A DNA stretch of 34,266 nt, from assembly GCA_016874655.1 (NCBI GenBank), contig VGTO01000012.1, positions 1 through 34,266 of the forward strand. Reading direction: 5' to 3'. Shown here one piece after another: positions 9,575 to 29,331 of the stretch. Position 1 is the first letter of the stretch; every line of letters begins with the position of its first letter. Source of the DNA: Bacillota bacterium (GTDB taxonomy: Bacteria > Bacillota > Dethiobacteria > DTU022). The notes beneath the pieces were generated by a model. The model was given only the letters and a program-made list of their open reading frames with translations, made no database searches and was not told the DNA's origin. A program made the translations under genes and the position numbers.

Positions 9575-11323
9575 ATGCCTGCAGCAAAAGAACTGATGCT
9601 TAAAGAATACGCAAGCATTGACTCTGAAATGCCCTGCTCGGCAGTAGTTGAAAAAATACTTCAGTCCGCAGGACAGGTTCTGGCTGTATTTGAGCGAAAA
9701 AAATACCTGGGTCTGATCACGACTCACTCACTAGTTACTCTGGAAAGAGGGGGCACGAGTCCGGTGTCCAAGAAAGCCGGCGAGTTGCTGCTTGATCCCT
9801 GTCCGGAAATCTCGCCTGACACCGATCTAAGTGGTGTGCTGGCTGTTTTGCAGCAGCAGCCGGTTATTGCGGTTAAATCGAAGCAGGGGAAACTCGAAGG
9901 GGTTATAACTGGCTCACTGCTGGCCCTCAAGCTGGCTGTTTCTGCACAGGAACTGGAGAAAGAGCTTGACGCCGTAATTGCTTTTTCCTCAGATGAGATT
10001 CTGATTGCCGATCGGGAGGGAAGGGTACTGCGAGCCAGCCGGCAATTTGAAGATAATTTCGGGGTAGAACTAGATGCAGTGTTGGGCAAGACCGTTGATG
10101 AGCTCGAAAAGAAAAAAGTATTTTACCCTTCTGTAACCAGGCTGGTTTTGGATAAAAAAGAGGTGCAGACAGTTATTCAGTCCCGTCGTGACGGCCGTAA
10201 GCTGCTGGCTACGGGCACTCCGGCTTTCAATGACGACGGTTCGATCTTTCGGGTTGTGGTCAATACCCGCGATATTACAAAACTGAACAACCTGAAACAG
10301 AAGCTGGAAGAGACCGAGCTGCTTAAAAATAGATACCAGCAGGAGTTGGTTGAACTGCGCCAGGGTTACCTGGGTAGCAGTGATTTGATAGCTGAGAGTC
10401 CGGCGATGGTCGATCTAGTCAGGATGGCGCAAAAAATTGCAGCCGTCGACTCAACGGTTTTACTGACCGGTGAATCGGGGGTCGGCAAGGGAATGATCGC
10501 CCGCTTTATCCACAGCTGCAGTCCCCGATCGGCTAAACCTTTTACCGTGGTTAATTGTGGGGCTATTCCGGAAAACCTGTTGGAAAGTGAGCTCTTTGGC
10601 TATGCCGGCGGGGCCTTTACCGGAGCGTTAAAGGAGGGCAAAATCGGCAAGCTTGAACTGGCCAACAAAGGAACACTTTTTCTTGACGAAATAGCCGACC
10701 TGCCGCTTAACCTGCAGGTGAAACTGTTGCATGTAATTCAGGAAGGGGTGATCAGCAGGATCGGCAGTACCAGGGAAATAATACTTAATTTGCGCTTCAT
10801 AGCTGCCACCAACAGGGATATTGCCACTCTGGTTGAGGAAGGAAAGTTTCGGGAAGATCTCTATTTTCGCCTCGATGTGATCCCGCTCCTGGTTCCTCCC
10901 TTACGGGAACGCCGGGAAGATATCAGAAAACTAACCGCAGCATTTTTAGAAAAGCTAAACCGCCGCTACCAGAAACAAAAAAGTTTTTCCGCAGAAGCGC
11001 TGACCATGTTTGAGGCATATCAATGGCCCGGTAATGTGCGGGAGCTGGAAAACCTGATCGAAAGAATGATCATTGTAGCGGAGGTTGAAGAGATCACACC
11101 ACAGAGCCTGCCCGGCTATTTGCTGGGTGAATCTAAAAAAGAAAGCTTTTTGCAAGCAGCAAAAGGCGATCTGCCTCCGCTTAAAGAGGCGCTGGAAACG
11201 CTGGAAAAAGAACTCCTGACGAAAGCAATGCAACGTTACCGGACAACCTACGAGATTGCTGTAGCGCTGCAGGTTGATCAATCAACAGTCGTCCGCAAAA
11301 TTCATAAGCACAAGCTGAGTTAA
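9575..11323 (+). CDS. Sigma-54-dependent enhancer-binding transcription activator (CBS pair-PAS-AAA+-HTH)
   Basis: Proteins of this class bind upstream DNA and use ATP to open sigma-54 promoters. In 582 residues the order is: a CBS-like pair (about 1-125), a PAS domain (about 128-240), a short coiled coil, then the AAA+ domain. The AAA+ domain has Walker A GESGVGKG (299-306), the sigma-54-contacting GAFTGA loop (346-351) and Walker B TLFLDEI (367-373). The conserved WPGNVREL is at 484-491 and a C-terminal helix-turn-helix covers about 557-582. The second half of Walker A is GVGKG rather than the usual GTGKE, but the lysine is kept. CBS domains often sense adenyl nucleotides or S-adenosylmethionine; the ligand here is unknown. 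It lies directly upstream of two palindromes and a sigma-54 promoter, so the aminotransferase-AOR unit is its likely target. Confidence 0.93.
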   Translation: MPAAKELMLKEYASIDSEMPCSAVVEKILQSAGQVLAVFERKKYLGLITTHSLVTLERGGTSPVSKKAGELLLDPCPEISPDTDLSGVLAVLQQQPVIAVKSKQGKLEGVITGSLLALKLAVSAQELEKELDAVIAFSSDEILIADREGRVLRASRQFEDNFGVELDAVLGKTVDELEKKKVFYPSVTRLVLDKKEVQTVIQSRRDGRKLLATGTPAFNDDGSIFRVVVNTRDITKLNNLKQKLEETELLKNRYQQELVELRQGYLGSSDLIAESPAMVDLVRMAQKIAAVDSTVLLTGESGVGKGMIARFIHSCSPRSAKPFTVVNCGAIPENLLESELFGYAGGAFTGALKEGKIGKLELANKGTLFLDEIADLPLNLQVKLLHVIQEGVISRIGSTREIILNLRFIAATNRDIATLVEEGKFREDLYFRLDVIPLLVPPLRERREDIRKLTAAFLEKLNRRYQKQKSFSAEALTMFEAYQWPGNVRELENLIERMIIVAEVEEITPQSLPGYLLGESKKESFLQAAKGDLPPLKEALETLEKELLTKAMQRYRTTYEIAVALQVDQSTVVRKIHKHKLS

Positions 11324-11501: not shown

Positions 11502-11517
11502 TGGCATCACTATTGCA
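11502..11517 (+). promoter_or_regulatory. Sigma-54 (RpoN) -24/-12 promoter
   Basis: TGGCATCACTATTGCA matches the sigma-54 consensus TGGCAC-N5-TTGCA with one difference. GG at 11503-11504 and GC at 11515-11516 are separated by exactly 10 bases. Transcription should start near 11528, about 35 bases before the aminotransferase ATG. An enhancer-binding activator is encoded immediately upstream. Confidence 0.88.
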
Positions 11518-11562: not shown

Positions 11563-12912
11563 ATGAGTAATAGTGGCGGTAAAGGTGCCCCCTACGGACC
11601 GGGGCCTAAGTCTCAGGAGCTGCTTAAAATGCGCGACGAGCACGTTGCCCGCGGCATATCCTATGTGCTGCCCGTCTTTGTAGAAACGGCCGAGGGAGCT
11701 GTGATTAAAGACGTTGACGGCAACGAGTATCTAGATTTTACAACTGGTATCGGTGTTACCAATTTTGGCCATAATCACCCGGTAGTGGTTGATGCAATCA
11801 AAAAGCAGGCTGATCAGTTCCTGCACACCTGCTTTATGGTGACGATGTATGAGCCCTATGTCAGGCTGGCTGCCGGCTTGAATAAAATGGTTCCGGGCAG
11901 CTTTGCCAAAAAAACAGCCCTCTTCAACAGTGGGGCTGAAGCGGTGGAAAATGCCGTAAAACTGGCCCGTCGCTATACCAAGAAAACAGCAATGGTCTCT
12001 CTGGAGTGTGCTTTTCACGGTCGGACCCTGATGGCCATGACCCTTACTTCAAAGGTAAAGCCCTATAAATACGGTTTCGGACCGTTTGCTCCCGACGTTT
12101 ACAAGATCCCGGCAGCCTATTGTTACCGCTGCCGTTTTGGATTGACCTATCCTTCCTGCGATTTACAGTGTGCCCGTTATCTTGAGCAGTTTTTTGCGGT
12201 TGAATGTACAGCCGATAACGTGGCGGCAGTAATCGCCGAGCCGGTTCAGGGAGAGGGTGGTTTCATCGTGCCGCCTGATGATTACTTTAAGGTGTTGCAC
12301 GAAATCTGCCGCAAGAACGATGTGCTGCTGATTATTGACGAGATCCAGTCCGGTTTTTATCGTACAGGAAAACCGCTGGCCAGCTTCCACTACGGCATTG
12401 AGCCCGACCTGATTACCATGGCTAAATCTTTGGCCGGTGGAGTGCCGATCAGCGCTTTAACCGGTAGAGCAGAGGTGATGGATGCAGCCGGTCCGGGCGA
12501 AATCGGCGGGACTTATGGCGGAAACCCCGTTGGGTGTGCTGCTGCTTTGGCCGTTCTTGAAATTGCCGAAAAGGAAAAACTAGCTGATCAGGCTGAAAAA
12601 ACTGGACGACTTACAGCAGATCGACTGGACCAGATGGCAGAGAAATACTCGATCATCGGTGAACACCGGGGCTTAGGCGCCATGCGGGCATTGGAGCTGG
12701 TTAAAGACCGTGGAACAAAGGCCCCCGATCCGGACCGGGCAAAGGCGATCATTAAGCGCTGCCACGAAAACGGCCTGATCATCATTACTGCCGGGATATT
12801 CAGCAACGTGATCCGCCTGCTGATGCCGGTCAATATTCCCACCGAACAGCTAAACAGAGGCCTGGACATTCTTGAAGAAGCTATTGCTGCAGAAGAAGGA
12901 GGCAGCCGCTAA
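11563..12912 (+). CDS. Class III PLP aminotransferase, 4-aminobutyrate/ornithine-type
   Basis: The enzyme would move an amino group from an omega- or alpha-amino acid to an oxo acid such as 2-oxoglutarate. I chose the ATG at 11563 (449 residues, GAGAAAGGGG upstream); an in-frame ATG at 11353 lies before the sigma-54 promoter and inside the palindromes, so it cannot be the start. The PLP lysine is Lys288 in TMAKSLAGG, the cofactor aspartate is Asp260 in IIDEIQSG, and phosphate-binding SGAEAVE is at 123-129. An unusual cysteine group CYRC-x8-C-x3-C (187, 190, 199, 203) may bind metal. Similar cysteines occur in archaeal and clostridial relatives. Substrate cannot be fixed from sequence; the adjacent AOR suggests the product is, or leads to, an aldehyde such as succinate semialdehyde. 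Confidence 0.9.
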   Translation: MSNSGGKGAPYGPGPKSQELLKMRDEHVARGISYVLPVFVETAEGAVIKDVDGNEYLDFTTGIGVTNFGHNHPVVVDAIKKQADQFLHTCFMVTMYEPYVRLAAGLNKMVPGSFAKKTALFNSGAEAVENAVKLARRYTKKTAMVSLECAFHGRTLMAMTLTSKVKPYKYGFGPFAPDVYKIPAAYCYRCRFGLTYPSCDLQCARYLEQFFAVECTADNVAAVIAEPVQGEGGFIVPPDDYFKVLHEICRKNDVLLIIDEIQSGFYRTGKPLASFHYGIEPDLITMAKSLAGGVPISALTGRAEVMDAAGPGEIGGTYGGNPVGCAAALAVLEIAEKEKLADQAEKTGRLTADRLDQMAEKYSIIGEHRGLGAMRALELVKDRGTKAPDPDRAKAIIKRCHENGLIIITAGIFSNVIRLLMPVNIPTEQLNRGLDILEEAIAAEEGGSR

Positions 12913-14676
12913 TTGAATTCTAATTTCGGCAAGCTTTTAATCATTGACCTTGATCAGTCCGATATCAGCGAAAGAAAGCTGGATGAGGAACTATTTCTTA
13001 ATTACCTTGGCGGCAAAGGCCTGGGCAGTTACCTGCTGCTGAAAATGCTTCCGCCCGGGGTGGATCCTCTTGCGGCTGAGAACCTGCTGATTTTTACTAC
13101 CGGCCCGGCTACTGACAGCCCCCTGGCTGCTGCTTCCCGTTTCGGAGTTTTCAGCAAATCGCCGGCTACAGGACTCTACTCTGAGTCATACAGCGGAGGG
13201 CACCTGCCACCGGTGATGAAAAGAACGGGGTACGATGCAATCGTCATTAGCGGGGCGGCAAAGAAACCCTGTTACCTGTCGATTTCGGAAGAAGCGGTTA
13301 ACTTTTATGATGCCGGCGACATCTGGGGCAAGGAGACTTATGCAGCAGAAGAAGAAATTGTCAAAGCGATCGGAGTCAAAGGTTCACAGGCACTGGTGAT
13401 CGGACCGGCTGGAGAAAGAAAACTTGCTTTCGCTTGTATCAAGAATAACCGCTGGCGCAGCGCCGGAAGAACCGGCTTAGGGGCGGTAATGGGTTCAAAA
13501 AATCTTAAAGGTATTGTTTTCAGTGGCAACGCCAAGGCTGCGCCCGCAGACGAGGAAGGGCTTAATAACTGGAGCCGCAACTTTTTTCAGCGCTTTAAAG
13601 ACTCACCGGAAGCTCGTCTTTATAAAGAAAAAGGCACGCCGGCCTTGGTGGCGGTTACCAACAATGCCGGTTGTTTTCCGACTCGTTATTGGTCATCAGG
13701 AACTCTTGAAGGTTGGGAAAAAATCAGCGCTGACTATATGCAAAATGAAATGACTGTGAAATCCCGTGGTTGCTACCGCTGTTTTTTTGCCTGCGGCAAG
13801 CTGACGACTGTTGAAAAGGGTCGGCACCGGGGTCTGACCGTTGAAGGACCTGAGTTTGAAACCATTTATGCTTTTGGTGGGCTCTGCTGTCTGCCGGAGA
13901 TGGAAGAGATCCTCTATTTGAATGATCTTTGTGATCGCTGGGGGATTGATACAATTAGTGCCGGCAACCTGGCCGCTTTTGCCATCGAGGCCGGTTTGCG
14001 GGGCAAACTTAAACAGGCGCCCCGCTACGGTGATGCCGACTCAATCGCCGAGTTTTTAGAGCGGGTGGTAGAAGGCAAAGGCGAAGGTGTAATCTTTGCA
14101 GACGGGATCAGGGAGGCGGCCAAAGCCCTGGGGATGGAAGACTTTGCGATCCACGTTAAAGGGCTTGAGCCGGCCGGTTATGATCCCCGGGTCTTAAAAG
14201 GGATGGGTCTTGCTTACGCTACTTCAGACCGCGGGGCCTGCCATTTACGGGCGACCTTTTACAAACCCGAATTAAGCGGAATGATCGACCCGGCACAAAT
14301 TAAAGGTAAGGCCAGGATGTTTATCGATTTTGAAGATCGCCTCAATATCTATGACTGCCTGATTTTCTGCCGTTTTTACCGCGACCTGATCCATTGGGAA
14401 GAGCTGATCGAACTACTGTACCTGTTGACCGGTATACGCTACAGTGCAGCTGATTTGCACAGTATCGCTGCCCGGGTTCAGAACTTAACCCGCCTGTTCA
14501 ACATTCGCGAAGGGGCAACGAGAAGCGATGATTGTTTGCCAAAACGCTTGCTGCAGGAGCCAATCAACGAGCAAAAAAACCTAATTACCAAAGAAGAACT
14601 TGATCTGTTGCTGAGTGATTACTACCTTTTGCGTGGCTGGGATCAAAATGGTATTCCGCCATTAAAGCAATGTTGA
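12913..14676 (+). CDS. Aldehyde ferredoxin oxidoreductase family protein (tungsten/molybdenum bis-pterin)
   Basis: AOR-family enzymes oxidise aldehydes to acids, or reduce acids, with ferredoxin. The 587-residue product begins at a TTG directly after the aminotransferase stop (TAATTG), with GAAGGAGG placed just upstream, so the genes are coupled. The [4Fe-4S] ligands are Cys287, Cys290, Cys294 (CYRCFFAC) and Cys486 (CLIFC). Pterin-binding segments DRWGID (341-346) and GLEPAGYDPR (417-426) and the ATSDRGACH element (436-444) are present. The N-terminal domain with YLGGKGLGSYLL and SGGHLPPVMKRTGYDAIVI is typical. The substrate aldehyde is unknown. NuoE/NuoF-like genes follow at 51 bases, so AOR may pass electrons to that complex or be part of it. 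Confidence 0.93.
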   Translation: MNSNFGKLLIIDLDQSDISERKLDEELFLNYLGGKGLGSYLLLKMLPPGVDPLAAENLLIFTTGPATDSPLAAASRFGVFSKSPATGLYSESYSGGHLPPVMKRTGYDAIVISGAAKKPCYLSISEEAVNFYDAGDIWGKETYAAEEEIVKAIGVKGSQALVIGPAGERKLAFACIKNNRWRSAGRTGLGAVMGSKNLKGIVFSGNAKAAPADEEGLNNWSRNFFQRFKDSPEARLYKEKGTPALVAVTNNAGCFPTRYWSSGTLEGWEKISADYMQNEMTVKSRGCYRCFFACGKLTTVEKGRHRGLTVEGPEFETIYAFGGLCCLPEMEEILYLNDLCDRWGIDTISAGNLAAFAIEAGLRGKLKQAPRYGDADSIAEFLERVVEGKGEGVIFADGIREAAKALGMEDFAIHVKGLEPAGYDPRVLKGMGLAYATSDRGACHLRATFYKPELSGMIDPAQIKGKARMFIDFEDRLNIYDCLIFCRFYRDLIHWEELIELLYLLTGIRYSAADLHSIAARVQNLTRLFNIREGATRSDDCLPKRLLQEPINEQKNLITKEELDLLLSDYYLLRGWDQNGIPPLKQC

Positions 14677-14727: not shown

Positions 14728-15273
14728 ATGAAACAAGCTACAGCCGCTGATTTAAGAACGTTGGCGCAAGACCACCCGGTTTTTGCCGTTAAAGAAATTG
14801 TTGACAAGCATATTGAAAGCAAGGGGGCGGCAATACCGATTCTGCAGGAGATTCAGAATGTTTTCGGCTATATTTCACCGGAACTGCTGCGAAGGGCCGG
14901 AGAATTTTCTGGTATTCCAGTCAATGAACTTTACAGTATCGTTACATTTTATGCCCAGTTCAGGATGGAACCGACTGGAGAGCATCTCATTCAGGTTTGC
15001 CATGGAACAGCCTGCCACTTGGCCGGTGCGGAACGAATTACTGAGTCAATTCAGTTCGAAACGAAAGCCGGTCCGGGAAAAACCAGCGATGACGGTATGT
15101 TTACGATGGAAAAGGTAGCCTGCCTCGGTTGCTGCAGTCTGGCACCGGTACTGACCATTGACGAGGAAACTTATGGAAAGCTTTCTCCCGAGAAAGTTCG
15201 AAAAATAATCAAGGATGTGCGGCGAAAAAACCCTGAGCACTCTGCTTCAAAGGGGGACAATGAAAGTGCATGA
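14728..15273 (+). CDS. NuoE-like [2Fe-2S] subunit (HydC/BfuA type)
   Basis: This thioredoxin-fold [2Fe-2S] protein is the 24-kDa-type electron carrier that partners NuoF-like flavoproteins in complex I, formate dehydrogenases, bifurcating hydrogenases and related complexes. The 181-residue sequence has the four ligands in CHGTAC (Cys91, Cys96) and CLGCC (Cys132, Cys136), preceded by a helical domain with ILQEIQNVFGYISPE and SIVTFYAQF. AAGGAGAAATT precedes the ATG. Its last 14 bases overlap the start of the NuoF-like gene. No membrane subunits of complex I are near, so the complex is soluble. Confidence 0.95.
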   Translation: MKQATAADLRTLAQDHPVFAVKEIVDKHIESKGAAIPILQEIQNVFGYISPELLRRAGEFSGIPVNELYSIVTFYAQFRMEPTGEHLIQVCHGTACHLAGAERITESIQFETKAGPGKTSDDGMFTMEKVACLGCCSLAPVLTIDEETYGKLSPEKVRKIIKDVRRKNPEHSASKGDNESA

Positions 15274-17062
15274 TAAACAGTATCGGGTAAAAGTTGGTCT
15301 CGCAACCTGTGGGATTGCCGGCGGAGCAGCAAAAGTTTATCAAATTTTAAAAGATCGCCTGCAAGAAAGCGGGATTGAAGTGGAACGAACCGGTTGTATC
15401 GGGATGTGCTACAATGAACCGCTGGTTGAGGTTATTGAAGCTGACGGCCAAAGTTATCTTTATGGTAATTTAGAGCCGGAGGACAGTTTGCATATTGTTG
15501 ATGAGCATATCGAAAAAGGCAAACCGGTAAGAAATTTGCTAGTTCTTGGTCGAAGTGCTGAAACCGATGATCAGACATTTTTAGAGAAACAGCGCCGTAT
15601 TTTGCTTAAAAATTGTGGTCATATCGATCCTGAAGAAATTCAAAGTTACATTGATGCCGATGGTTACAAAGGTTTAAGAAGAGCCCTGGAGCAAATGACT
15701 CCGGAATCAGTGATTGAAGAAATAAAGCAATCCGGGTTAAGAGGCAGAGGTGGCGCAGGTTTTCCAACGCATCTGAAATGGGGCCTGACCCGTCAAGCCG
15801 ATGGGGCCCAAAAGTACATTGTTTGCAATGCAGACGAAGGTGATCCGGGTGCATTTATGGATCGCAGTGTTCTAGAAGGTGATACACATAGCGTGTTGGA
15901 GGGAATGCTAATTGCCGGATACGCCATTGGTGCGTCGATCGGCTATGTATATATCAGGGCCGAATATCCACTGGCCATTCGCCGCTTAAAGATTGCAATC
16001 AAGCAGGCTGAAGGAAAAGGGTTACTTGGTAAGAACATTCTCGGTTCCAACTTTAGTTTTGAATTATTTATCCGGGAAGGCGCCGGAGCTTTTGTATGCG
16101 GTGAGGAAACAGCTCTTTTAATGTCAATTGAAGGGAAAAGAGGTATGCCTCGCTTTCGTCCGCCATTTCCGGCCCAAAAAGGTCTTTTTGGTTGTCCCAC
16201 ATCGATCAATAATGTCGAAACATTTGCCAATGTGCCCCGCATTCTGCATCTGGGGGCTTCGGCCTACAATCAGCTCGGGACCGAAGAGAGCAAAGGGACC
16301 AAGGTTTTTGCCCTGGCTGGCAAAATCAGGCGGGGTGGTCTAATTGAGATTCCGATGGGTACAACCATCAATGAAATAGTATTTGATATTGGCGGAGGGA
16401 TTTCAACTGGGAAACCATTTAAAGCAATCCAGACCGGTGGCCCTTCTGGAGGTTGTATTCCTGCTGAGCTGGGCGATACTCCTGTTGATTACGAATCGCT
16501 AAAAAAGATAGGAGCGATCATGGGCTCAGGTGGATTACTGGTAATGGATGAAGAAACCTGCATGGTTGACGTTGCCCGCTATTTCCTCTCGTTTACCAGA
16601 GAAGAATCATGTGGCAAGTGCACTTTCTGTCGGGCCGGTACGCATCAGATGCTGAAGATCTTAGAACGAATCACCCAAGGCGAGGGGCGGGAGGAAGATG
16701 TCGATTTGCTGATCGAACTGGCTGAAAAGATTAAAGCCGGCTCTCTTTGTGGTCTTGGTCAGACAGCACCAAACCCGGTTCTGACCACTATAAAATATTT
16801 TCGAAATGAATACGATGCCCATGTTAAGGAAAAGTACTGCCCGGCCAAAAAATGTAAGGCTCTAATTACCTATGAAATCGATCCGGAGGCCTGTACCGGT
16901 TGTACTCTATGCGCCAGGAACTGTCCGGTTGATGCTATATCCGGTATGAAAAAAGAAGCGCATGTTATTGATCAGTCAATCTGTATCAGTTGCGGTCTTT
17001 GCATCAACAGCTGTAAATTTGATGCTGTAACAGTGAGTTCGAAACCGAAGCAGCTTGTCTAA
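15260..17062 (+). CDS. NuoF-like NADH/FMN-binding iron-sulfur subunit (HydB/BfuB type)
   Basis: This flavoprotein would exchange electrons between NAD(H), FMN and iron-sulfur clusters. With the ATG at 15260 (AAGGGGGAC upstream) it has 600 residues; a frame-open start at 15215 lies inside the previous gene without a comparable site. Order: a thioredoxin-like N-terminus (about 10-95) with three cysteines (17, 46, 50), then the FMN/NADH core with GLRGRGGAGFPT (159-170) and CNADEGDPGAF (189-199). The SLBB region follows, then the N3-type [4Fe-4S] site (Cys451, 454, 457 and 497). Two ferredoxin clusters lie at the C-terminus (CTGCTLCARNC 545-555, CISCGLCINSC 575-585). The C-terminal ferredoxin extension is typical of HydB and bifurcating relatives rather than complex I. 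Confidence 0.94.
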   Translation: MKVHDKQYRVKVGLATCGIAGGAAKVYQILKDRLQESGIEVERTGCIGMCYNEPLVEVIEADGQSYLYGNLEPEDSLHIVDEHIEKGKPVRNLLVLGRSAETDDQTFLEKQRRILLKNCGHIDPEEIQSYIDADGYKGLRRALEQMTPESVIEEIKQSGLRGRGGAGFPTHLKWGLTRQADGAQKYIVCNADEGDPGAFMDRSVLEGDTHSVLEGMLIAGYAIGASIGYVYIRAEYPLAIRRLKIAIKQAEGKGLLGKNILGSNFSFELFIREGAGAFVCGEETALLMSIEGKRGMPRFRPPFPAQKGLFGCPTSINNVETFANVPRILHLGASAYNQLGTEESKGTKVFALAGKIRRGGLIEIPMGTTINEIVFDIGGGISTGKPFKAIQTGGPSGGCIPAELGDTPVDYESLKKIGAIMGSGGLLVMDEETCMVDVARYFLSFTREESCGKCTFCRAGTHQMLKILERITQGEGREEDVDLLIELAEKIKAGSLCGLGQTAPNPVLTTIKYFRNEYDAHVKEKYCPAKKCKALITYEIDPEACTGCTLCARNCPVDAISGMKKEAHVIDQSICISCGLCINSCKFDAVTVSSKPKQLV

Positions 17063-17109
17063 ACGCAAGCAGATCATTGCTTCCTGATTATTGACATGGA
17101 GGATTAAAT

Positions 17110-20100
17110 ATGTCCAAGGTAGAGATCACGATTAACGGAAATAAAATAATGGCTGAAAAAGGCAACAACCTGCTTGAAACAGCCTTGCAAAATGGTATTG
17201 ACATTCCTCACCTTTGTTATGATCCGCGGATCAAACCTTTTGGTTCTTGCCGTCTCTGTTTTATCGAAACAGGTGGGCCAAGAGGACCGGTTGCTGCTTG
17301 CGGAACCGTGGTGGCAGAAGGGATGGCTGTAGTAACTGATAATGAATCATTGTATAAACTGCGTAAAACTGCTCTGGAATTGTTACTTTCAGAACACTGC
17401 GGTGATTGTATTGCTCCCTGTCAAGAGGCCTGTCCTGCCCATATCGATATCCAGGGTTATATTGCCTTGCTTGACAGGAAAGAATATAAAAAGGCAGCTG
17501 AGCTGATCAAAGAAAAGATGCCTTTACCTTCAATCTGCGGTCGTGTTTGCCCGCGGTTTTGCGAAGATCAGTGCAGAAGAAATATGGTTGACGATCCGGT
17601 TAATATCTGCGACCTGAAAAGGTTTGCCGGAGATTATGACCTGGAGATGATCGATTCCTACAAAACGAAGGCAATAGCTGACAGTGGTAAAACAGTAGCG
17701 GTGGTTGGTGGTGGACCAGCTGGCTTAACTGTTGCATACTACCTTGCTTTGAAAGGTCACCGGGTGACCTTATTTGATCGTGGTCCAAAGCTTGGCGGGA
17801 TGTTGCGCTATGGTATTCCTGAATACCGCCTGCCAAAAGCGCTGCTTGACCGGGAGATTAATCTGATAGCCGGACTCTGCCGGGAGGTCCGCTTAGGTGA
17901 AGTTCTTGGGAAAGATTTTACCATTGAAGATCTAACTGATCAATATGACGCCGTCTTTCTTGGTTTGGGCTGTCAGTCAGCCCAGGGAATGGGTCTCGAA
18001 GGAGAAGATCGACCTGGTATCCTCAAAGGGATTGATTTATTACGCAGCGTGGCCGAAGGTACCCCTCCGGTCTTGGGCAAAAAAGTGGCGGTTATCGGTG
18101 GTGGTAATACGGCAATGGATGCTGCCAGGACAGCTCTTCGCCTGGGGTCAGAAGAAGTGCATTTAATCTATAGACGCAGCCGCAATGAAATGCCGGCAGC
18201 TCTTATAGAAATTGAAGAAGCGGAAGAAGAAGGAATAAAATTTGATTACCTGACCAACCCGGTTTCGGTTTTGGGCACCGACTGTGTTAAGGGCGTGGGA
18301 TGTGTGCAGATGAAGTTGGGTGAACCCGATGAAAGTGGTCGTTGTCGTCCCTTGGTAGTTGAAGGATCAGAGTTTATGCTTGAAGTAGATAATGTGATTA
18401 TGGCAATCGGACAGACGCTGGATCAGGAAAGTACCTGTGCATGCAGCATTGAGCTAAAAGGAAAAACGATGGCCGCCTGCTCTGATACCGGTCAAACTTC
18501 TATCGATAAAGTATTTGCCGCCGGTGATGCGGTTACGGGGCCTGCAACAGTTGTTGAAGCCGTTGGGGCAGCAAGGAATGTGGCATTGGCCATCAACCGA
18601 TATCTTCAGGGGCTGACGGTTGAATCTGAGTCGGAAAGCTATAATTGCTCGATGGGCCGGCTTGACCTGCTTGATCCTGAAGATTTTTCCGAATATCCGA
18701 AAGAAGTACGTTTGCCGGTGCACCATCTGGCCCCGGAAGTGCGCAAGAAAAGTTTTGTGGAATATAATCAGGGGCTGAGTGAAGAAGACGTTGTCAAAGA
18801 AACAAAACGCTGCCTTTCCTGCGGTTGTCAGAATGTTTTCGATTGCTCCCTACGCCAATTGGCTACTGACTTTAAACTCGATAACGAACGTTTGGGAACA
18901 GAAAAGAAAAGATATCCCATCAGAAATGATCATCTCTTTATTGTGCAAGATCCCAACAAGTGTGTACTTTGTGCTAATTGTGTACGTATTTGCCATGAGG
19001 TTCAGGGGGCAAACGCACTCTGCCTGGTCAATCGCGGTTATGATACGATTATAAGCCCAACTTTACAGCTGCCCCTTAATGAGACCACTTGTGAATCCTG
19101 TGGCCAATGTATATCAGTTTGTCCTACCGGAGCTCTTACCGCAAAAGGCTATTTCTTTAAACCCGGTCCCTGGTTCCCCGATCGGGTTGTTGAGAGTACC
19201 TGTACGCGTTGTGGGATCGGTTGTCGCGTCGAGCTGAGTGTAGTAGCAAACAGGGTAATAGAAATTAATTCACCTTTACGTCAGGATCTGAATGATGGCA
19301 ATTTGTGCATTAGGGGTCGATATGAGCCGCTTTTTGCACAAGATACTGATCGGATCCTGAAACCATTCATCAATTTTGACGGACAAAAAAAGCTGGAAAT
19401 TAATTGGCCTGAAGCATTAGAAAGGGCAGCTACCGGATTAGTGCGGGTCAAAAAAGAATCTGGGCCTGGTAGCATTGCCGTTATCATCACTTCATCGCTT
19501 AGCAATGAAGAGATGATTCTGACGCAGCAACTAGCTGTTGACGTTCTTGGCTCAGATCGGATCTATTCAACCGGGTTAACTCCTGCCACGGCAAGCATTA
19601 TTGGGAAACCACTGTTTTACAAAGAGATTGCAGAAAGTGATTTTATCCTTGTTGTTGATGCCGACCTGCCCGAAGATTATCCGATTGTTGCTCAAAAGAT
19701 ACGCAAGGCCTTAGCGCAAGAGGCAAAACTTGTTTTTATCGGGACTGCCGCAAATCGCTTAGTTAAAGATGCAGATGTTTCTGTTCTTTGCAATCCAGGG
19801 AAACTTAAGTCAATATTAAATACGCTGCTGTACTATCAGAGTGGTAAAGAAAAACATCTCTCACTCAGTGATTCTGAGTTAACTGAAGCTTTAGCATCTT
19901 TACCCCAGGATCTTTCTGATAATCCGTCTGTTTTGGTTCAGATAGCCGAGCTATTTCTAAAATCTAGCAAGCCCGTAGTAATTATTAATGGTGATACAAC
20001 CGACAGAGAAACATATGACCTCTTAGCGGAGCTTTACCGTCAAGCCGGAAACGATCTTAATCCCAGCATTCTTGCTCTTTACAGAGGCGGTAATACTGCA

Positions 20101-20535
20101 GGCCTGATTGAAATGGGTTTTGCCAAAGGATTGGTGGATGGAAAAGCCTTATCCCTTGGCTGCAATAGTGATCAGGTGGTGACAGAACTGTTGAAGCAGA
20201 TGAAAGGTTTGCTGCTGATCGGCGATGATCCGGCAGCACTTATTGATCTTGCAGCTCCGGATAGTTTTATTGTGGCAATGGCTGCGTATAATCAATCCAA
20301 ACTGCAAAAAGCCGATCTGGTTTTGCCGTTGGCTGGTTATTTTGAAACAACCGGAACAGTAGTTAACAGTGAAAGAAGACTTTGTGAACTGAGGCTGGCC
20401 TATGCGCCGCTTGCGGGGAAAAGCAATTCAGCTTTGCTGATTGATTTGGCGAAGGCCCTCGGTGCCAACCTGGAACCAATAACAAAAAATCAGGTTGTCG
20501 AAAGAATAAGTCAGCTGTTATCGTTAGAAGATTAA
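17110..20535 (+). CDS. Fusion of ferredoxin, GltD/NfnB-like FAD-NAD(P)H oxidoreductase and NuoG-like molybdopterin-fold domains
   Basis: This 1141-residue iron-sulfur flavoprotein is probably the large subunit of the NuoE/F complex. In order: a [2Fe-2S] domain (Cys36, 47, 50, 64) and a cysteine set at 97-108. Then a GltD-like module (about 105-505) has cysteines 143/147/151/155, FAD motif VVGGGPAG (198-205), NAD(P) motif VIGGGNTAMD (328-337) and YRRSRNEMP, which favours NADPH. Next come an extra CLSCGC site (568-573) and two [4Fe-4S] clusters (618-628, 661-671). A molybdopterin-oxidoreductase-like domain with ligands at 698, 701, 705 and 733 extends to the end. That last part is short and NuoG-like: I find no catalytic Cys or selenocysteine, so it may hold no metal. 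GGAGG precedes the ATG. There is no [FeFe]-hydrogenase H-cluster motif. Confidence 0.88.
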   Translation: MSKVEITINGNKIMAEKGNNLLETALQNGIDIPHLCYDPRIKPFGSCRLCFIETGGPRGPVAACGTVVAEGMAVVTDNESLYKLRKTALELLLSEHCGDCIAPCQEACPAHIDIQGYIALLDRKEYKKAAELIKEKMPLPSICGRVCPRFCEDQCRRNMVDDPVNICDLKRFAGDYDLEMIDSYKTKAIADSGKTVAVVGGGPAGLTVAYYLALKGHRVTLFDRGPKLGGMLRYGIPEYRLPKALLDREINLIAGLCREVRLGEVLGKDFTIEDLTDQYDAVFLGLGCQSAQGMGLEGEDRPGILKGIDLLRSVAEGTPPVLGKKVAVIGGGNTAMDAARTALRLGSEEVHLIYRRSRNEMPAALIEIEEAEEEGIKFDYLTNPVSVLGTDCVKGVGCVQMKLGEPDESGRCRPLVVEGSEFMLEVDNVIMAIGQTLDQESTCACSIELKGKTMAACSDTGQTSIDKVFAAGDAVTGPATVVEAVGAARNVALAINRYLQGLTVESESESYNCSMGRLDLLDPEDFSEYPKEVRLPVHHLAPEVRKKSFVEYNQGLSEEDVVKETKRCLSCGCQNVFDCSLRQLATDFKLDNERLGTEKKRYPIRNDHLFIVQDPNKCVLCANCVRICHEVQGANALCLVNRGYDTIISPTLQLPLNETTCESCGQCISVCPTGALTAKGYFFKPGPWFPDRVVESTCTRCGIGCRVELSVVANRVIEINSPLRQDLNDGNLCIRGRYEPLFAQDTDRILKPFINFDGQKKLEINWPEALERAATGLVRVKKESGPGSIAVIITSSLSNEEMILTQQLAVDVLGSDRIYSTGLTPATASIIGKPLFYKEIAESDFILVVDADLPEDYPIVAQKIRKALAQEAKLVFIGTAANRLVKDADVSVLCNPGKLKSILNTLLYYQSGKEKHLSLSDSELTEALASLPQDLSDNPSVLVQIAELFLKSSKPVVIINGDTTDRETYDLLAELYRQAGNDLNPSILALYRGGNTAGLIEMGFAKGLVDGKALSLGCNSDQVVTELLKQMKGLLLIGDDPAALIDLAAPDSFIVAMAAYNQSKLQKADLVLPLAGYFETTGTVVNSERRLCELRLAYAPLAGKSNSALLIDLAKALGANLEPITKNQVVERISQLLSLED

Positions 20536-20694: not shown

Positions 20695-22035
20695 ATGTCC
20701 ACGAAAATCAAAGAGTTTATGAATACTGTTGTTACTAAAAATCCTGGTGAAGTTGAATTTCATCAGGCAGTAGAAGAAGTTGTTGAAACGATTTATCCCT
20801 ATATTGAAGAAAACCCTAAATACCTGAAGGCAAAAATATTGGAACGTTTGGTAGAACCAGAAAGGATCGTAATATTTAGGGTGCCCTGGCTTGACGATAA
20901 AGGAGATGTGCAAGTTAACCGTGGTTACCGCATTCAATGGAACAGCGCCATTGGGCCCTATAAAGGTGGTCTTCGCTTTCATCCCAGCGTTAATTTAAGC
21001 ATACTCAAATTTTTAGCCTTTGAGCAGGTTTTTAAAAACGCCTTGACAACCCTGCCGATGGGCGGTGGTAAAGGCGGTTCTGATTTTGATCCAAAGGGCA
21101 AATCAGACAATGAGATCATGAAATTCTGCCAGAGTTTCATGACAGAACTGAGTAGGCACATTGGTCCGAATACTGATGTACCGGCTGGCGATATTGGGGT
21201 TGGCGGGCGTGAAATTGGTTACATGTTTGGACAGTATAAAAGGCTAAGCAATGAGTTTACGGGTGTTTTAACCGGTAAAGGCCTTAACTGGGGTGGTAGC
21301 CTGATCCGGCCTGAAGCAACAGGATACGGTTGTGTCTATTTTGTAGAAGAGATGTTGAAGACTAAAGGTGACTCTTTACACAACAAAATTTGTGCTGTTT
21401 CGGGGGCTGGTAATGTAGCCCAGTATACCATTGAGAAACTGCTTGAAATGGGAGCTAAAGTAGTTACCTGTTCAGATTCAAATGGCTATATTCGGGCGGA
21501 GCAAGGTCTGCAAACAAAAGACCTTGAAAGTGTTCTAAGACTCAAAAACGTCAAGCGCGGGCGGGTTAAAGAACTAGTTGATGAATTTGCCTGCGAATAT
21601 TACGAGGATCAAAAACCATGGTCGGTTAAATGTGATATCGCTTTTCCCTGTGCGACACAGAACGAAATTGATGAAAAAGATGCCAAGATGCTAATTAAAA
21701 ATGGATGTATTGCTATTGGCGAAGGAGCCAACATGCCAACGACACCAGCCGGCGTTGAAGTATTCCAGAAAGCGAAGATTCTGTATGCCCCGGGTAAAGC
21801 AGCCAATGCAGGCGGGGTATCAACTTCCGGCCTGGAGATGACGCAGAATAATATGCGTCTGGCCTGGTCAAGAGAAGAAGTTGATCAGAAACTACATTCA
21901 ATTATGATCAATATCCATGAACAATGTGTTAAATATGGTAAGCAGGATGACGGCTATGTCGATTATGTCAAGGGAGCAAACATCGCCGGTTTTGTTAAAG
22001 TAGCGGATGCGATGATTGACCAGGGAATTGTTTAA
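20695..22035 (+). CDS. gdhA: Glutamate dehydrogenase, hexameric, probably NADP-dependent
   Basis: It interconverts glutamate with 2-oxoglutarate and ammonia. The 446-residue protein aligns by eye with the clostridial and enterobacterial small hexameric class: Lys90 in GPYKGGLRFHP, Lys114, the catalytic Lys126 in LPMGGGKGGSDF and Asp166 in DVPAGDIGVGG. The Rossmann segment SGAGNVAQYTIEKLL followed by SDSNG resembles the NADP-type E. coli enzyme, hence the coenzyme guess. GCAGGAGG precedes the ATG. The 159-base AT-rich gap upstream has a TATAAA at 20659-20664 but no convincing -35, so it may have its own promoter or be read from the preceding unit. A terminator follows. Confidence 0.96.
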   Translation: MSTKIKEFMNTVVTKNPGEVEFHQAVEEVVETIYPYIEENPKYLKAKILERLVEPERIVIFRVPWLDDKGDVQVNRGYRIQWNSAIGPYKGGLRFHPSVNLSILKFLAFEQVFKNALTTLPMGGGKGGSDFDPKGKSDNEIMKFCQSFMTELSRHIGPNTDVPAGDIGVGGREIGYMFGQYKRLSNEFTGVLTGKGLNWGGSLIRPEATGYGCVYFVEEMLKTKGDSLHNKICAVSGAGNVAQYTIEKLLEMGAKVVTCSDSNGYIRAEQGLQTKDLESVLRLKNVKRGRVKELVDEFACEYYEDQKPWSVKCDIAFPCATQNEIDEKDAKMLIKNGCIAIGEGANMPTTPAGVEVFQKAKILYAPGKAANAGGVSTSGLEMTQNNMRLAWSREEVDQKLHSIMINIHEQCVKYGKQDDGYVDYVKGANIAGFVKVADAMIDQGIV

Positions 22036-22063
22036 GCTGATTACTGTATAGGAAACAGGCTGG

Positions 22064-22100
22064 GCGCTCTTTCTAATCAGAGAGCGCTCTTTGCCTTCTT
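22064..22100 (+). terminator. Intrinsic terminator after gdhA
   Basis: GCGCTCT (22064-22070) pairs with AGAGCGC (22081-22087) and is followed by pyrimidine-rich TCTTTGCCTTCTT. The stem is GC-rich, but the U-tract is interrupted, so termination may be incomplete. Confidence 0.65.
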
Positions 22101-22202: not shown

Positions 22203-25187
22203 ATGGATTTAGAACGTTTAAATTATTACTACACAAAATTTAAATTTGGTGAAGACAATTTCCACGATCTGATGCAATTCAGAGTTCGGGAAATTTTGCT
22301 GATCTCCACCCTCTATGATGCCTATACCTTCGAGCAGGAATCACGGTTAAGCCAGCAGTTGGTTGGCGAATATCATGAATTAAAACTGACTACTATACCG
22401 CGGATCACCAATGTACCAACCGCTGAAGAAGCTCTGGATAAATTAAAAGAGCAGCGTTACGATCTGATCATTACCACCATGCGCATTGCCGGTTTGACTG
22501 CTTTTGAACTTGGTCGCAAGATCAAAGAACAGTATAGCGACATTCCGATCCTGCTTTTACTGACTAATAAAGCCGATCTAAGTATTGTAGCGAGCAAAAA
22601 GGATGAAATGTCATATTTCGATAATGTTTTTCTATGGAATGGCGATTCCAAACTGATTCTGGCTATGATTAAATACATTGAGGATAAACTGAATGTCGAA
22701 TATGATACTCGCAACGGTCTGGTCAGAGTGATCCTGCTGGTGGAAGACTCAGTTGATTTTTATTCCCTTTATCTGCCGGTCCTTTACAAGGAGATTATGC
22801 TACAGACCCAAAGGCTGATTTCAGAGGAATTAAATGATGCCCAAAAGTATTACCGGATGCGAGCCAGACCGAAAGTCCTCTATGCCAGAAATTATGAGGA
22901 AGCGATAGCTCTTTATGATCAATATAAAGAATTTATTCTATGTTTGATCTCTGATATCAGCTTTGATAAAGATGGCAAACTAAACAGGGGAGCAGGAATT
23001 CAGCTAATCAAGACAGTACAGAAGGATAAATGGGAGATCCCAGTTCTTTTACAATCCTCTGACCTGGCCAATAGAAAAGTGGCAGAGTCTTTGCAAGCTA
23101 GTTATATCTGCAAATATTCTCCAAATCTTTTGCACGAACTGAAGAGTTTTATTTGTAACAATTTAGGATTTGGCGATTTCATATTTCGAAATGCCGATGG
23201 TGAAGAGATTGATCGGGCAACCTCCCTGGCAGATCTGGAAAAGAAAATCATGCACGTTCCAAAGGAAACCTTACTTTACCACAGTAAGAAGAATCATTTT
23301 TCAGCCTGGCTGATTGCTCATGGTGAAATTCAGGTCGCGAGGAGGATTCGACCGGTAAAAAACACTGATTTTGCCGACACCGATCAACATCGGCAATTCC
23401 TGGTTAATGTCTTTAACCAGACTAGACATGAGCGGCGAAAGGGGAAGGTAATCGCTTTTGAGAAAGATTCTCTGGCTACTGAGGATCAGATTATTAAGTT
23501 AACTGAGGGTTCGCTTGGGGGTAAGGGTCGGGGAATCGCTTTTTTTAATAGTTTATTTTCAATTATTAATGCGGAACGGGAAGACGAAGACACCGTTATA
23601 AAAATTCCTCGGACCTTTATTATCGGCACAGATGAGTATGATTCCTTTATTGAAGTCAACAAACTTCGCAAATTAATGCCCTGCGAAAACGATCAGGTAA
23701 TTAAGGAACAATTCATTAAAGGAATACTTACCCCTGAATTGACAGAAAAGCTTACAGAACTGCTACAGGTTATTACCAAACCCTTGGCAGTCAGATCCTC
23801 CGGACTACTCGAAGATTCGCAGTCTCAGCCTTTTGCCGGGATTTATGAAACCTACATGCTGCCCAATAATGCTAAACATTTGTCAGTCCGTCTTGAACAG
23901 CTAACGCGTGCGATCAAGTTGGTCTATGCATCAGTATATTTGCAGGACGCTAAGAGCTATATTGAAAGCCTTCGGTATCGATTGGAAGAAGAAAAAATGG
24001 CGGTTGTTATTCAGGAAGTAGTAGGGAGGGAAACGGCAGGCTTTTATTACCCGCACCTTTCAGGGGTTGCTCAATCTTATAATTTTTATCCCACTTCTTA
24101 TCTCAAACACCACGATGGCGTGGCGATGCTTGTTGCCGGCTTAGGCCATTCCATCGTTGAAGGCGGTAGAACCCACCGGTTTTGTCCTCTTTATCCTGAG
24201 ATGAACTTCTTTTCGGTTGAAGATCAAGTACGGTACACGCAAACAGAAATATTTGCTTTGGATATGCAAAAAGGCAGTGCCGATAACGATAAAGGTGAAC
24301 TAACAACCTTAGCGATACTGTCAATTGAAACAGTTGAAGAACACAAAAATTTGAAACATCTGGCTTCTGTCTGGGATGCGGCAAATCATCGAATCGAAAG
24401 CGGACTTGGTAATGGGGGACCACGTGTAGTTAATTTTGCCAACATTTTGCAATATGAAACATTCCCCCTGGCAAAGCTATTGGTTGAAATCCTTGGTATC
24501 TCAGAAGTTGCCTTTGGAGTGCCTGTTGAGATCGAATTTGCAGTTGATCTTACCAGTGATCGAGATCTTGGTGAAACGCCTGCCTTTTATTTTTTGCAGG
24601 TTCGTCCGCTTACGGTTAATACCGGAGAGCTAAACACAGATCTCGATGCACTTAGGGCTGAAGATCTTATCCTTTTCACTAATGAAGGCATGGGACATGG
24701 TGTATTCGACAACCTTTATGACCTGGTAGTGGTCAATCCTGAAAACTTTAATAAAACCGAAACCATAAAGATTCAGCAGGAGATTGAGTATTTCAATCAA
24801 AAACTAAAAAATGAAAATAGACGTTATATCCTGATTGGTCCCGGGCGTTGGGGGTCACGCGATCGTAGCTTGGGTGTTCCGGTCAGCTGGGGACAAATTG
24901 CACAGGCCCAGGTCATTGTGGAAGCTGGTATTAAGGATTTCGATATTGAACCTTCGCAAGGCACCCATTTTTTCCATAACCTAGTTGCTTTGAATATCGG
25001 CTATTTTAATATTAATTATCATTCAAAAACTGATTTCATCGATTGGGACTGGATCAAGATTCAGGATCGGGATGAAGAAAAGAATTATACTTTTCATCTA
25101 AAAAGTGAGCAGCCCTTTCTAGTAAAAATGGATGGTAAAAAAGGAATTTCTGTAATCATGAAACCCCAATTATTGGGTAGTTTTTGA
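22203..25187 (+). CDS. Receiver-like/PEP synthase-type ATP-grasp protein lacking the phosphohistidine domain
   Basis: The function of this 994-residue protein is unknown. The N-terminus holds two receiver-like domains. The first (about 28-162) has Thr92 where the phospho-accepting Asp should be (LIITTMRI). The second (about 175-320) keeps acidic VEDS, Asp251 in LISDISF and Lys304 in ICKYS, so it may be phosphorylated. From about 430 comes a PPDK/PEP-synthase N-terminal ATP-grasp domain: GSLGGKGRG (436-444), VRSSGLLEDS (530-539), PFAGIYETY (543-551) and LQVRPL (798-803). No swivelling His domain (the TSHAA-type motif) and no PEP-binding barrel follow. Instead there is a C-terminal region with GPGRWGS (879-885) and GTHFFHNL (920-927). 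It cannot be an ordinary PEP synthase or PPDK. It may be a signal-controlled phosphotransferase acting on another protein. Confidence 0.8.
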   Translation: MDLERLNYYYTKFKFGEDNFHDLMQFRVREILLISTLYDAYTFEQESRLSQQLVGEYHELKLTTIPRITNVPTAEEALDKLKEQRYDLIITTMRIAGLTAFELGRKIKEQYSDIPILLLLTNKADLSIVASKKDEMSYFDNVFLWNGDSKLILAMIKYIEDKLNVEYDTRNGLVRVILLVEDSVDFYSLYLPVLYKEIMLQTQRLISEELNDAQKYYRMRARPKVLYARNYEEAIALYDQYKEFILCLISDISFDKDGKLNRGAGIQLIKTVQKDKWEIPVLLQSSDLANRKVAESLQASYICKYSPNLLHELKSFICNNLGFGDFIFRNADGEEIDRATSLADLEKKIMHVPKETLLYHSKKNHFSAWLIAHGEIQVARRIRPVKNTDFADTDQHRQFLVNVFNQTRHERRKGKVIAFEKDSLATEDQIIKLTEGSLGGKGRGIAFFNSLFSIINAEREDEDTVIKIPRTFIIGTDEYDSFIEVNKLRKLMPCENDQVIKEQFIKGILTPELTEKLTELLQVITKPLAVRSSGLLEDSQSQPFAGIYETYMLPNNAKHLSVRLEQLTRAIKLVYASVYLQDAKSYIESLRYRLEEEKMAVVIQEVVGRETAGFYYPHLSGVAQSYNFYPTSYLKHHDGVAMLVAGLGHSIVEGGRTHRFCPLYPEMNFFSVEDQVRYTQTEIFALDMQKGSADNDKGELTTLAILSIETVEEHKNLKHLASVWDAANHRIESGLGNGGPRVVNFANILQYETFPLAKLLVEILGISEVAFGVPVEIEFAVDLTSDRDLGETPAFYFLQVRPLTVNTGELNTDLDALRAEDLILFTNEGMGHGVFDNLYDLVVVNPENFNKTETIKIQQEIEYFNQKLKNENRRYILIGPGRWGSRDRSLGVPVSWGQIAQAQVIVEAGIKDFDIEPSQGTHFFHNLVALNIGYFNINYHSKTDFIDWDWIKIQDRDEEKNYTFHLKSEQPFLVKMDGKKGISVIMKPQLLGSF
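25165..25185 (+). terminator. Small hairpin with T-run overlapping the stop of the ATP-grasp gene
   Basis: CCCAA (25165-25169) pairs with TTGGG (25173-25177) around a 3-base loop and is followed by TAGTTTTT. The stop codon lies just past the T-run. The stem is short, so this is a weak terminator candidate. Confidence 0.45.
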
Positions 25188-25319: not shown

Positions 25320-25556
25320 TTGATCCGGACCGTAAATGACGAAATAACCGCAGTCCTGACCATTAATCAGGAGTGGTGTAAAGGCTGCGGTATCTGTGTA
25401 GCTTTCTGTCCCAGGGAAGCTCTTTTTATTAATGATGCCGGTAAAGCAGAGAAACATAGCGATCAGTGTACTGCGTGTACAGTATGCGAGCTTTTCTGCC
25501 CTGATTTTGCACTTGTTGTAGTCAAAAAGGGGGCAGCGGTGCATGGCGGAAACTAA
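25320..25556 (+). CDS. korD: 2x[4Fe-4S] ferredoxin subunit of 2-oxoacid:ferredoxin oxidoreductase
   Basis: This 78-residue ferredoxin-like delta subunit carries two clusters: CKGCGICVAFC (Cys20, 23, 26, 30) and CTACTVCELFC (Cys50, 53, 56, 60). It would take electrons from the thiamine-pyrophosphate site of the alpha/beta subunits. The start is a TTG at 25320, about 12 bases after GGGAGGG; no better in-frame start exists. Its end overlaps korA by 14 bases. The gene order delta-alpha-beta-gamma is that of Kor/Vor-type four-subunit enzymes. Confidence 0.92.
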   Translation: MIRTVNDEITAVLTINQEWCKGCGICVAFCPREALFINDAGKAEKHSDQCTACTVCELFCPDFALVVVKKGAAVHGGN

Positions 25557-26673
25557 GCCGGTTTTGATGCAGGGTAACGAAGCCTGTGCCATGGGGGCGA
25601 TTAGTGCCGGTGTACGTTTTTATGCCGGATACCCGATTACCCCGTCAACTGAAGTGGCTGAAATAATGGCCGCCAAGTTACCTGAAATTGGTGGGGTCTT
25701 TATCCAGATGGAAGATGAGATTGCCAGCATGGCGGCTGTGATCGGCGCCTCGATTGGCGGGATGCGGACGCTGACTGCCACCAGTGGCCCCGGTTTTTCC
25801 CTGAAGCAGGAAAATCTCGGCTATGCGATTATGGCCGAAATTCCCTGTGTGGTAGTTAATGTTCAACGCATGGGCCCCAGCACCGGGGTCCCCACTGCCC
25901 CGGCTCAGGGTGATGTGATGCAAGCCCGTTGGGGAACCCATGGAGACCATCCGATTATTGTTTTCTCGCCTTCCTCTGTTTATGAAACATATTATCTGAC
26001 CATTGCCGCCGTCAACTTAAGTCAAAAGTTGAGACAGCCGGTGATCATGCTGCTCGACGAAGTAATTGGCCACATGCGGGAGAAGGTCTTTATTCCGGAA
26101 GCAGGGAAGCTGCTGGTTGAAAAATCAAGCGACCAGATTCCTTCAGACTGGAAACCGTACGACGAAAAAGGGCTGACCCCTCTAGTACCGTTTGGTTTTG
26201 GCCATTACTATCATGTCACCGGTCTTTTTCACGATCAGTATGGTTTTCCGACCGGCGATCCACCCCATGTTGAAAGGGCGCTTGATCGCCTTCATGCTAA
26301 ACTGGAAAAATATCGTGACGAGATCGTCTTGACCAACTACATTGGCCACAAAGAACCGCGAGTGGCAATTGTTGCTTATGGGTGCACTGTCCGCTCAGCC
26401 CGTTCTGTGGTCAAAAAAGCTTACTGGCAGGATCGTCTGCCGGTTGGCCTCTTAAGCTTGCAAACAATCTGGCCTTTCCCGGCCCGGGAAATAGAAGCCC
26501 TGGCCAAGCAGGCCGATGTGATTATTGTGCCCGAAATGAATATGGGACAGCTTGTGGGCGAAGTTGAGCGTTACGTTTGTGGTCAGGCTAAGGTAGTACC
26601 GTTGAACCGCTACGACGGAGAGATGATCACTCCGGATCAAATATCTGAATTAATCGGGAGGTGGCTGTCCTAG
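25543..26673 (+). CDS. korA: 2-oxoacid:ferredoxin oxidoreductase, alpha subunit (Kor type)
   Basis: This subunit forms the pyrimidine-binding part of a thiamine-dependent enzyme that converts a 2-oxoacid plus CoA to acyl-CoA, CO2 and reduced ferredoxin. The 376 residues include GNEACAMGAISAG (11-23), YPITPSTEVAE (30-40) and TATSGPGFSLKQENLG (78-93), all typical of KorA/VorB. The C-terminal transketolase-like domain follows. The ATG lies inside the end of korD. Sequence alone does not settle whether the substrate is 2-oxoglutarate or a branched-chain oxo acid. The nearby glutamate dehydrogenase favours 2-oxoglutarate. Confidence 0.94.
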   Translation: MAETKPVLMQGNEACAMGAISAGVRFYAGYPITPSTEVAEIMAAKLPEIGGVFIQMEDEIASMAAVIGASIGGMRTLTATSGPGFSLKQENLGYAIMAEIPCVVVNVQRMGPSTGVPTAPAQGDVMQARWGTHGDHPIIVFSPSSVYETYYLTIAAVNLSQKLRQPVIMLLDEVIGHMREKVFIPEAGKLLVEKSSDQIPSDWKPYDEKGLTPLVPFGFGHYYHVTGLFHDQYGFPTGDPPHVERALDRLHAKLEKYRDEIVLTNYIGHKEPRVAIVAYGCTVRSARSVVKKAYWQDRLPVGLLSLQTIWPFPAREIEALAKQADVIIVPEMNMGQLVGEVERYVCGQAKVVPLNRYDGEMITPDQISELIGRWLS

Positions 26674-27482: not shown

Positions 27483-27494
27483 GGCGGGTGGCAG

Positions 27495-29328: not shown

Positions 29329-29331
29329 GAG

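Follow-up and report, generated by a model that had tools for sequence, protein, structure and literature searches.

We analysed a 34,266-nucleotide stretch of a Bacillota bacterium (class Dethiobacteria; contig VGTO01000012.1 of assembly GCA_016874655.1), here referred to as the window, and focused on a large redox protein encoded at 17110-20535 on the plus strand. Its open reading frame (ORF) has an ATG start and encodes 1141 amino acids. It is the last of three contiguous genes of NuoE, NuoF and GltD-NuoG type, which we read as a complete StnABC operon spanning 14728-20535. The first gene, stnA (14728-15273, plus strand), encodes a NuoE/HydC-like [2Fe-2S] subunit that matches the structures 9n5u_C, 9bov_C and 8oh5_A. 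The second, stnB (15260-17062, plus strand), encodes a NuoF/HydB-like subunit with a thioredoxin-like N-terminus, an FMN/NAD(H) domain, a [4Fe-4S] site and two further [4Fe-4S] sites at the C-terminus. The stnB ORF opens at 15215, and the likely start is 15260, as it is preceded by the Shine-Dalgarno sequence GGGGGA and structure matches align from residue 24. The stnA-stnB-stnC order is preserved in relatives.

Identity and domain organization of StnC

Judged by sequence comparison, the 1141-residue protein is very probably (about 90%) the StnC subunit of an StnABC (Nfn-Bfu) electron-bifurcating transhydrogenase. It matches 9bov_A (E=5e-237) and 8oh5_C (E=5e-228) over its whole length, and StnB matches 9bov_B (E=2.8e-254) and 8oh5_B (E=9.7e-251); by their entry titles, 8oh5 is Sporomusa ovata StnABC, 9bov is Caldicellulosiruptor saccharolyticus Nfn-ABC and 9n5u is Thermococcus sibiricus NfnABC. 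An AlphaFold model of StnC was built from 46 sequences (mean predicted local distance difference test score, pLDDT, 80.9; predicted template modelling score, pTM, 0.59), and its top four fold matches all belong to these three complexes, including 9bov_A, 8oh5_C and 9n5u_A. Because pTM is low and the ferredoxin stretch at residues 616-687 mostly has pLDDT below 50, the model confirms the domain folds and not their arrangement. The S. ovata complex has already been purified and solved by cryo-EM, and it catalyses NADH + reduced ferredoxin + 2 NADP+ <-> NAD+ + oxidised ferredoxin + 2 NADPH (PMC7483475, PMC10482914). A preliminary description of the locus had guessed at an NADH/NADPH/ferredoxin transhydrogenase-like enzyme with two pyridine-nucleotide sites; the whole-length match of all three subunits to StnABC bears this out, with the NADPH site at StnC and the NAD(H) site at StnB.

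The fusion and the domains described there are indeed present, and Pfam places Fer2_4 at residues 3-78, Fer4_20 (a dihydropyrimidine dehydrogenase/GltD-type [4Fe-4S] domain) at 94-179, Pyr_redox_2 at 195-487, an Nqo3-type ferredoxin at 611-677, Molybdop_Fe4S4 at 692-737 and Molybdopterin at 748-1096. In nucleotide coordinates of the plus strand, the protein begins with a [2Fe-2S] domain (residues 1-96, 17110-17397; Cys36/47/50/64) that ends at His96, in the first half of an N5-type motif. An inserted GltD/NfnB-like FAD-NADPH module follows (residues ~95-505, 17392-18624), with GxGxxG at 200-205, GGGNTA at 330-335, Lys170 and Arg240. Then come a CxxCxCx5C half-motif that completes the split N5-type [4Fe-4S] motif (residues 568-579, 18811-18846), two ferredoxin-type [4Fe-4S] sites (618-671, 18961-19122) and a molybdopterin-fold domain (692-1141, 19183-20532) with [4Fe-4S] ligands at 698/701/705/733.

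We aligned 90 sequences, namely the window protein, residues 1-881 of S. ovata StnC and 88 relatives. The cluster cysteines and His96 are invariant or nearly so; Cys568/571/573/579 and Cys698/701/705/733, which lie at the positions described earlier, are each invariant, as is the half-motif HxxxCxxxCxxxC (His96, Cys100/104/108). Lys170, reported as strictly conserved in StnC (PMC10482914), and Arg240, the counterpart of S. ovata Arg239, are both kept in 90/90. Models of NuoG, HoxU and FeFe-hydrogenase match StnC from residue 1 to about 100, break off near 96 and restart at 565-573; according to Kremp et al., the GltD module splits the motifs HxxxCxxxCxxxCP and CxxCxCxxxxC (PMC7483475). Since the module is inserted in the middle of the motif, the cysteines at 568-579 are its second half. 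They had earlier been taken for an extra site; the cysteines are there, but they are not extra, being half of the interrupted N5 motif of NuoG/HydA. StnC of a sister family (f5; L123-L128) has about 1240 amino acids and is about 100 residues longer at the C-terminal end.

The electron path was taken from S. ovata and applied to the window complex by homology. NADPH would reduce the FAD of the GltD-like module, and electrons would leave this FAD one by one via two adjacent clusters, one with the unusual Lys170. They would then pass the split N5-type cluster, the [2Fe-2S] cluster and a ferredoxin-type cluster before reaching StnB; the S. ovata route runs from the StnC FAD through C7, C6, C5, C4 and C3 to B1 and the StnB FMN (PMC10482914). 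The single FMN of StnB, beside the StnA [2Fe-2S] cluster, would split the electrons, one going to NAD+ and one to ferredoxin, the latter through the C-terminal ferredoxin-like domain of StnB. In the published enzyme the reaction is reversible, and bifurcation takes place at the FMN of the NuoF-like subunit and not at the StnC FAD (PMC10482914).

The molybdopterin-fold domain and other identities

Residues 816-832 of StnC (19555-19605, plus strand), DRIYSTGLTPATASIIG, form a loop without the Mo/W-ligand tetrapeptide. In local alignments, RVCH of R. capsulatus FdsA (Cys386) and RYCQ of B. subtilis YjgC stand opposite a four-residue gap, and the tetrapeptide is also deleted in S. ovata StnC. No conserved Cys or Sec occurs in this loop among the StnC relatives of the 90-sequence alignment. 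A hidden Cys was considered and rejected: 34 of the 90 have some Cys in a wider stretch, but at scattered positions, and in a gut clade the Cys lies several residues before the metal-ligand site in a loop that is still short. As far as its sequence tells, the domain is catalytically dead, in keeping with the earlier remark on a NuoG-like domain without a visible catalytic ligand. The S. ovata counterpart is described as catalytically inactive and as required either for stability or for assembly, and neither of its two clusters lies on the electron route (PMC10482914); in the window protein the domain probably has a role in assembly.

Other identities can be weighed against these features. An NADPH-dependent sulfur/oxygen oxidoreductase (Nso-like) is highly improbable. 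NsoABC of Thermococcus litoralis shares the architecture (PMC7483475, PMC10482914), and one relative (L010) is labelled Dethiobacter sp., a sulfur-metabolising lineage; however, Nso has just part of the C-terminal domain, without the cysteines of cluster C2 (PMC10482914), all of which the window StnC has, and Kremp et al. regard Nso itself as a likely transhydrogenase (PMC7483475). The weakest candidate, with hardly any probability left, is an active Mo/W formate dehydrogenase (Fdh-Bfu), or another pterin oxidoreductase, joined to an NADPH module. The C-terminal domain does match formate dehydrogenase alpha subunits (6tg9_A, E=1.7e-33) and retains the N-terminal [4Fe-4S] ligands, but the RVCH/RYCQ position is a gap with no conserved Cys/Sec among relatives, StnC misses the alpha-subunit cut-off (124.7 vs 666 bits), and in an assay of formate oxidation purified S. 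ovata Stn showed no activity (PMC7483475).

We also rejected a HydABC [FeFe]-hydrogenase (no H-cluster domain among the Pfam matches, the C-terminal domain being PF00384/PF04879), NuoG of complex I (285.1 vs 470.05 bits for the equivalog TIGR01973) and NfnAB of the NfnB/GltA family (355.8 vs 471.75 bits for TIGR01316). The deleted ligand loop, the missed family cut-offs and the missing H-cluster domain agree with the preliminary view that the enzyme is neither a formate dehydrogenase nor a hydrogenase.

Genomic setting and metabolic role

The stn genes are embedded in a larger plus-strand gene group. It is preceded by a gene for a sigma-54-dependent activator (9575-11323; CBS-like, PAS, AAA and HTH domains), which is PrdR-like, below the PrdR cut-off, and is found upstream of the aminotransferase also in relatives. 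A class-III aminotransferase (11563-12912) scores above the cut-off of TIGR00700, 4-aminobutyrate transaminase (553 vs 506.65 bits), and a tungsten-type aldehyde:ferredoxin oxidoreductase (AOR; 12913-14676) matches AFOR_N and AFOR_C over its whole length. Behind stnC lies an NADP-specific glutamate dehydrogenase (20695-22035; PRK09414, 777 vs 536 bits), directly followed by a strong terminator-like hairpin with 11 pairs and a T tail (22062-22089), probably the end of the transcription unit.

The aminotransferase start was revised from 11353, given by the mechanical ORF, to 11563, as the orthologue in the sister species G001 has 449 amino acids from the matching start; the ribosome-binding site AAAGGGGA supports this. 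A sigma-54 (-24/-12) promoter, TGGCATCACTATTGC, lies at 11502-11516 (plus strand), 46 bp before the revised start. It has one mismatch to TGGCAC-N5-TTGC and adjoins the activator gene. Such an element, with 0-1 mismatch and at a near-constant position, was present in 12/12 examined loci of the aminotransferase-AOR cluster, against a background of about 0.06 per 700 bp. Sigma-54 sites show no enrichment across the window as a whole (39 against 33.7 expected), and the site at 11502 stood out solely after the start revision and the orthologue comparison. The genes from aminotransferase to glutamate dehydrogenase, stnABC included, are probably one unit under sigma-54 control, which would make them co-regulated.

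In such a unit, an omega-amino acid, for instance 4-aminobutyrate, would be oxidised, and StnABC would use the NADPH from glutamate dehydrogenase to form NADH and to reduce ferredoxin. This recycling of NADPH during omega-amino-acid oxidation is the most likely role, for which we infer both substrate and direction. A transhydrogenase in an apparently inducible operon would naturally link tungsten-dependent aldehyde oxidation, NADP-dependent deamination and ferredoxin; our literature search found no paper tying 4-aminobutyrate, AOR, glutamate dehydrogenase and transhydrogenase together.

Two other views of the unit were weighed. NADP-specific glutamate dehydrogenases are often anabolic. StnABC might accordingly run in the NADPH-forming direction, with reduced ferredoxin from AOR and NADH feeding reductive amination, and the enzyme is reversible (PMC10482914). 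The catabolic-type sigma-54 activator and the 4-aminobutyrate transaminase nevertheless suggest amino-acid oxidation, and we consider the NADPH-forming direction unlikely, though worth keeping in mind. Far less probable is a larger complex of AOR and StnABC that would pass electrons from aldehydes straight into the Bfu core. Wor-Bfu complexes that oxidise aldehydes are known (PMC9304861), and stnA directly follows the AOR gene, but most relatives have the AOR orthologue with the same neighbours and without stn genes, no Wor small subunit is present, and the BfuA role is already filled by StnC.

Several points weigh against an StnABC operon with a role in NADPH recycling. First, StnC is only 36-37% identical to characterised proteins. 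Second, position 114 is Ile, whereas Cys114 of S. ovata tunes the FAD-adjacent cluster (among the 90 sequences C66, I14, A8, V2). This position is published as variable, with Val or Ile in some homologues (PMC10482914), and Ile114 is therefore not disqualifying. Third, of 98 genomes from the class the window genome alone places StnC next to this AOR, so that Stn is linked to AOR and glutamate dehydrogenase in a single genome and the metabolic role can be held only loosely. Fourth, the genome is a draft of 152 contigs; both window flanks are syntenic with G001, which makes a simple mis-join unlikely.

Clusters of aminotransferase, AOR and glutamate dehydrogenase occur throughout the taxonomic order. 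The arrangement activator, aminotransferase, AOR, glutamate dehydrogenase and 2-oxoacid:ferredoxin oxidoreductase recurs widely within the family, where it contains no stn genes. In G001, which has no Stn, AOR is directly followed by a different type of glutamate dehydrogenase. In another relative, G003, the glutamate dehydrogenase behind AOR is of the NADP type, as in the window (85% identical), and the Stn genes are elsewhere. Within the family, the enrichment of NADP-type glutamate dehydrogenase together with Stn is no more than borderline (3/6 vs 3/30, p=0.045). The StnABC genes of G003 (L118:8811-19840, contig C9) stand beside genes of an Nqr/Rnf-type membrane complex, which suggests another functional coupling of Stn.

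Further downstream in the window, 22203-25187 encodes a protein of 994 amino acids that combines a response-regulator-like segment with a pyruvate phosphate dikinase/phosphoenolpyruvate (PEP)-synthase N-terminal domain, without PEP-utiliser domains; it is conserved (77%) in the same position in G003 and is absent from G001. At 25543-30258 lie a KorABC-type 2-oxoacid:ferredoxin oxidoreductase and then a histidine kinase with a YcbB-type response regulator, a block kept in most relatives, with G001 lacking the kinase/regulator pair.

The nusB-xseA site and comparison with known systems

We surveyed 60 genomes for full-length StnC and for NfnB above the curated cut-off, and the two never co-occurred. 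All 19 genomes of family f5 have exactly one of them, Stn in 10 and Nfn in 9 (Fisher p=1.1e-5, relatedness uncorrected). Near mutual exclusion of Nfn and Stn has already been published for acetogens (PMC7483475).

These complexes share a site that is bounded by nusB and a tsaD-like gene on one side and by xseA on the other and has folD genes close by. In most members of the family it holds an SfrAB-like pair (22 loci, window genome included); the pair at L163:6641-10661 (G000, contig C11) consists of a NuoF-cluster domain fused to GltD, plus a NuoG-like protein. StnABC occupies the site in G011, G014, G024 and most Stn-bearing f5 genomes, and Nfn in G017, G044, G045, G046, G051 and G056. It is empty in G009, G039, G041 and G047, which have Stn or Nfn elsewhere. 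When the SfrAB-like pair is set against Stn or Nfn within the family, 2 genomes (the window genome and G003) have both, 28 and 5 have one, and 1 has neither (p=3e-4), figures subject to incomplete genomes, contig edges and phylogenetic non-independence.

The shared place suggests, but is no proof, that SfrAB-like, Stn and Nfn are equivalent in function, with the SfrAB-like pair as a possible third interchangeable enzyme. It would be a candidate for the missing third transhydrogenase of organisms without Nfn and Stn, a question raised by Kremp et al. (PMC7483475). As far as we found, the position of the exchanging complexes is new. The combined picture, in which one site in this class of Firmicutes exchanges SfrAB-like, StnABC and NfnAB, the SfrAB-like pair is a third link to the NADPH pool, and the window StnABC was recruited to a sigma-54 omega-amino-acid operon for NADPH recycling, is tentative, with somewhat less than an even chance. 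As a separate observation, L164:4319-6382 (G000, contig C19) encodes a 687-amino-acid GltD-like protein that carries ferredoxin clusters and, at its C-terminus, an FlpD/MvhD domain; the gene adjoins a pyruvate phosphate dikinase gene, and similar proteins occur in nearly all relatives.

The Stn family, which keeps the NADPH, NADH and ferredoxin pools of anaerobes in balance, is already characterised, and the informative part here is the genomic context. S. ovata StnABC (PDB 8oh5/8oh9; PMC7483475, PMC10482914) resembles the window complex in its three subunits, domain order, cluster ligands, Lys170, Arg239 (Arg240 in the window) and dead Mo-fold domain. It differs in Cys114 (Ile in the window), with StnC identity of 36-37%, and its genes lie by metVF and pabAB, whereas those of the window are inside the aminotransferase-AOR-glutamate dehydrogenase unit. 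NfnABC of C. saccharolyticus (PDB 9bov/9bp5), described as an electron-bifurcating Nfn-ABC, is the best sequence and fold match for StnC (identity ~37%) and the best sequence match for StnB. NfnABC of T. sibiricus (Nfn-Bfu; PDB 9n5u/9n5v; PMC9304861) has the same BfuBC core and an NADPH-binding GltD-like BfuA, and reduces ferredoxin with NADPH only when NAD+ is present (PMC9304861). Compared with the S. ovata type, its BfuA lacks about 200 residues and one cluster, and its C-terminal domain is truncated. NfnAB shares the net reaction and the GltD-like NADPH/FAD fold, but has two subunits and bifurcates at the NfnB FAD. SfrAB (Geobacter NADPH oxidoreductase) and the SfrAB-like pair of the window genome have the GltD-like and NuoG-like modules; unlike StnABC, they keep these in separate genes and have no NuoE/NuoF flavin subunit, SfrB containing just the NuoF cluster domain.

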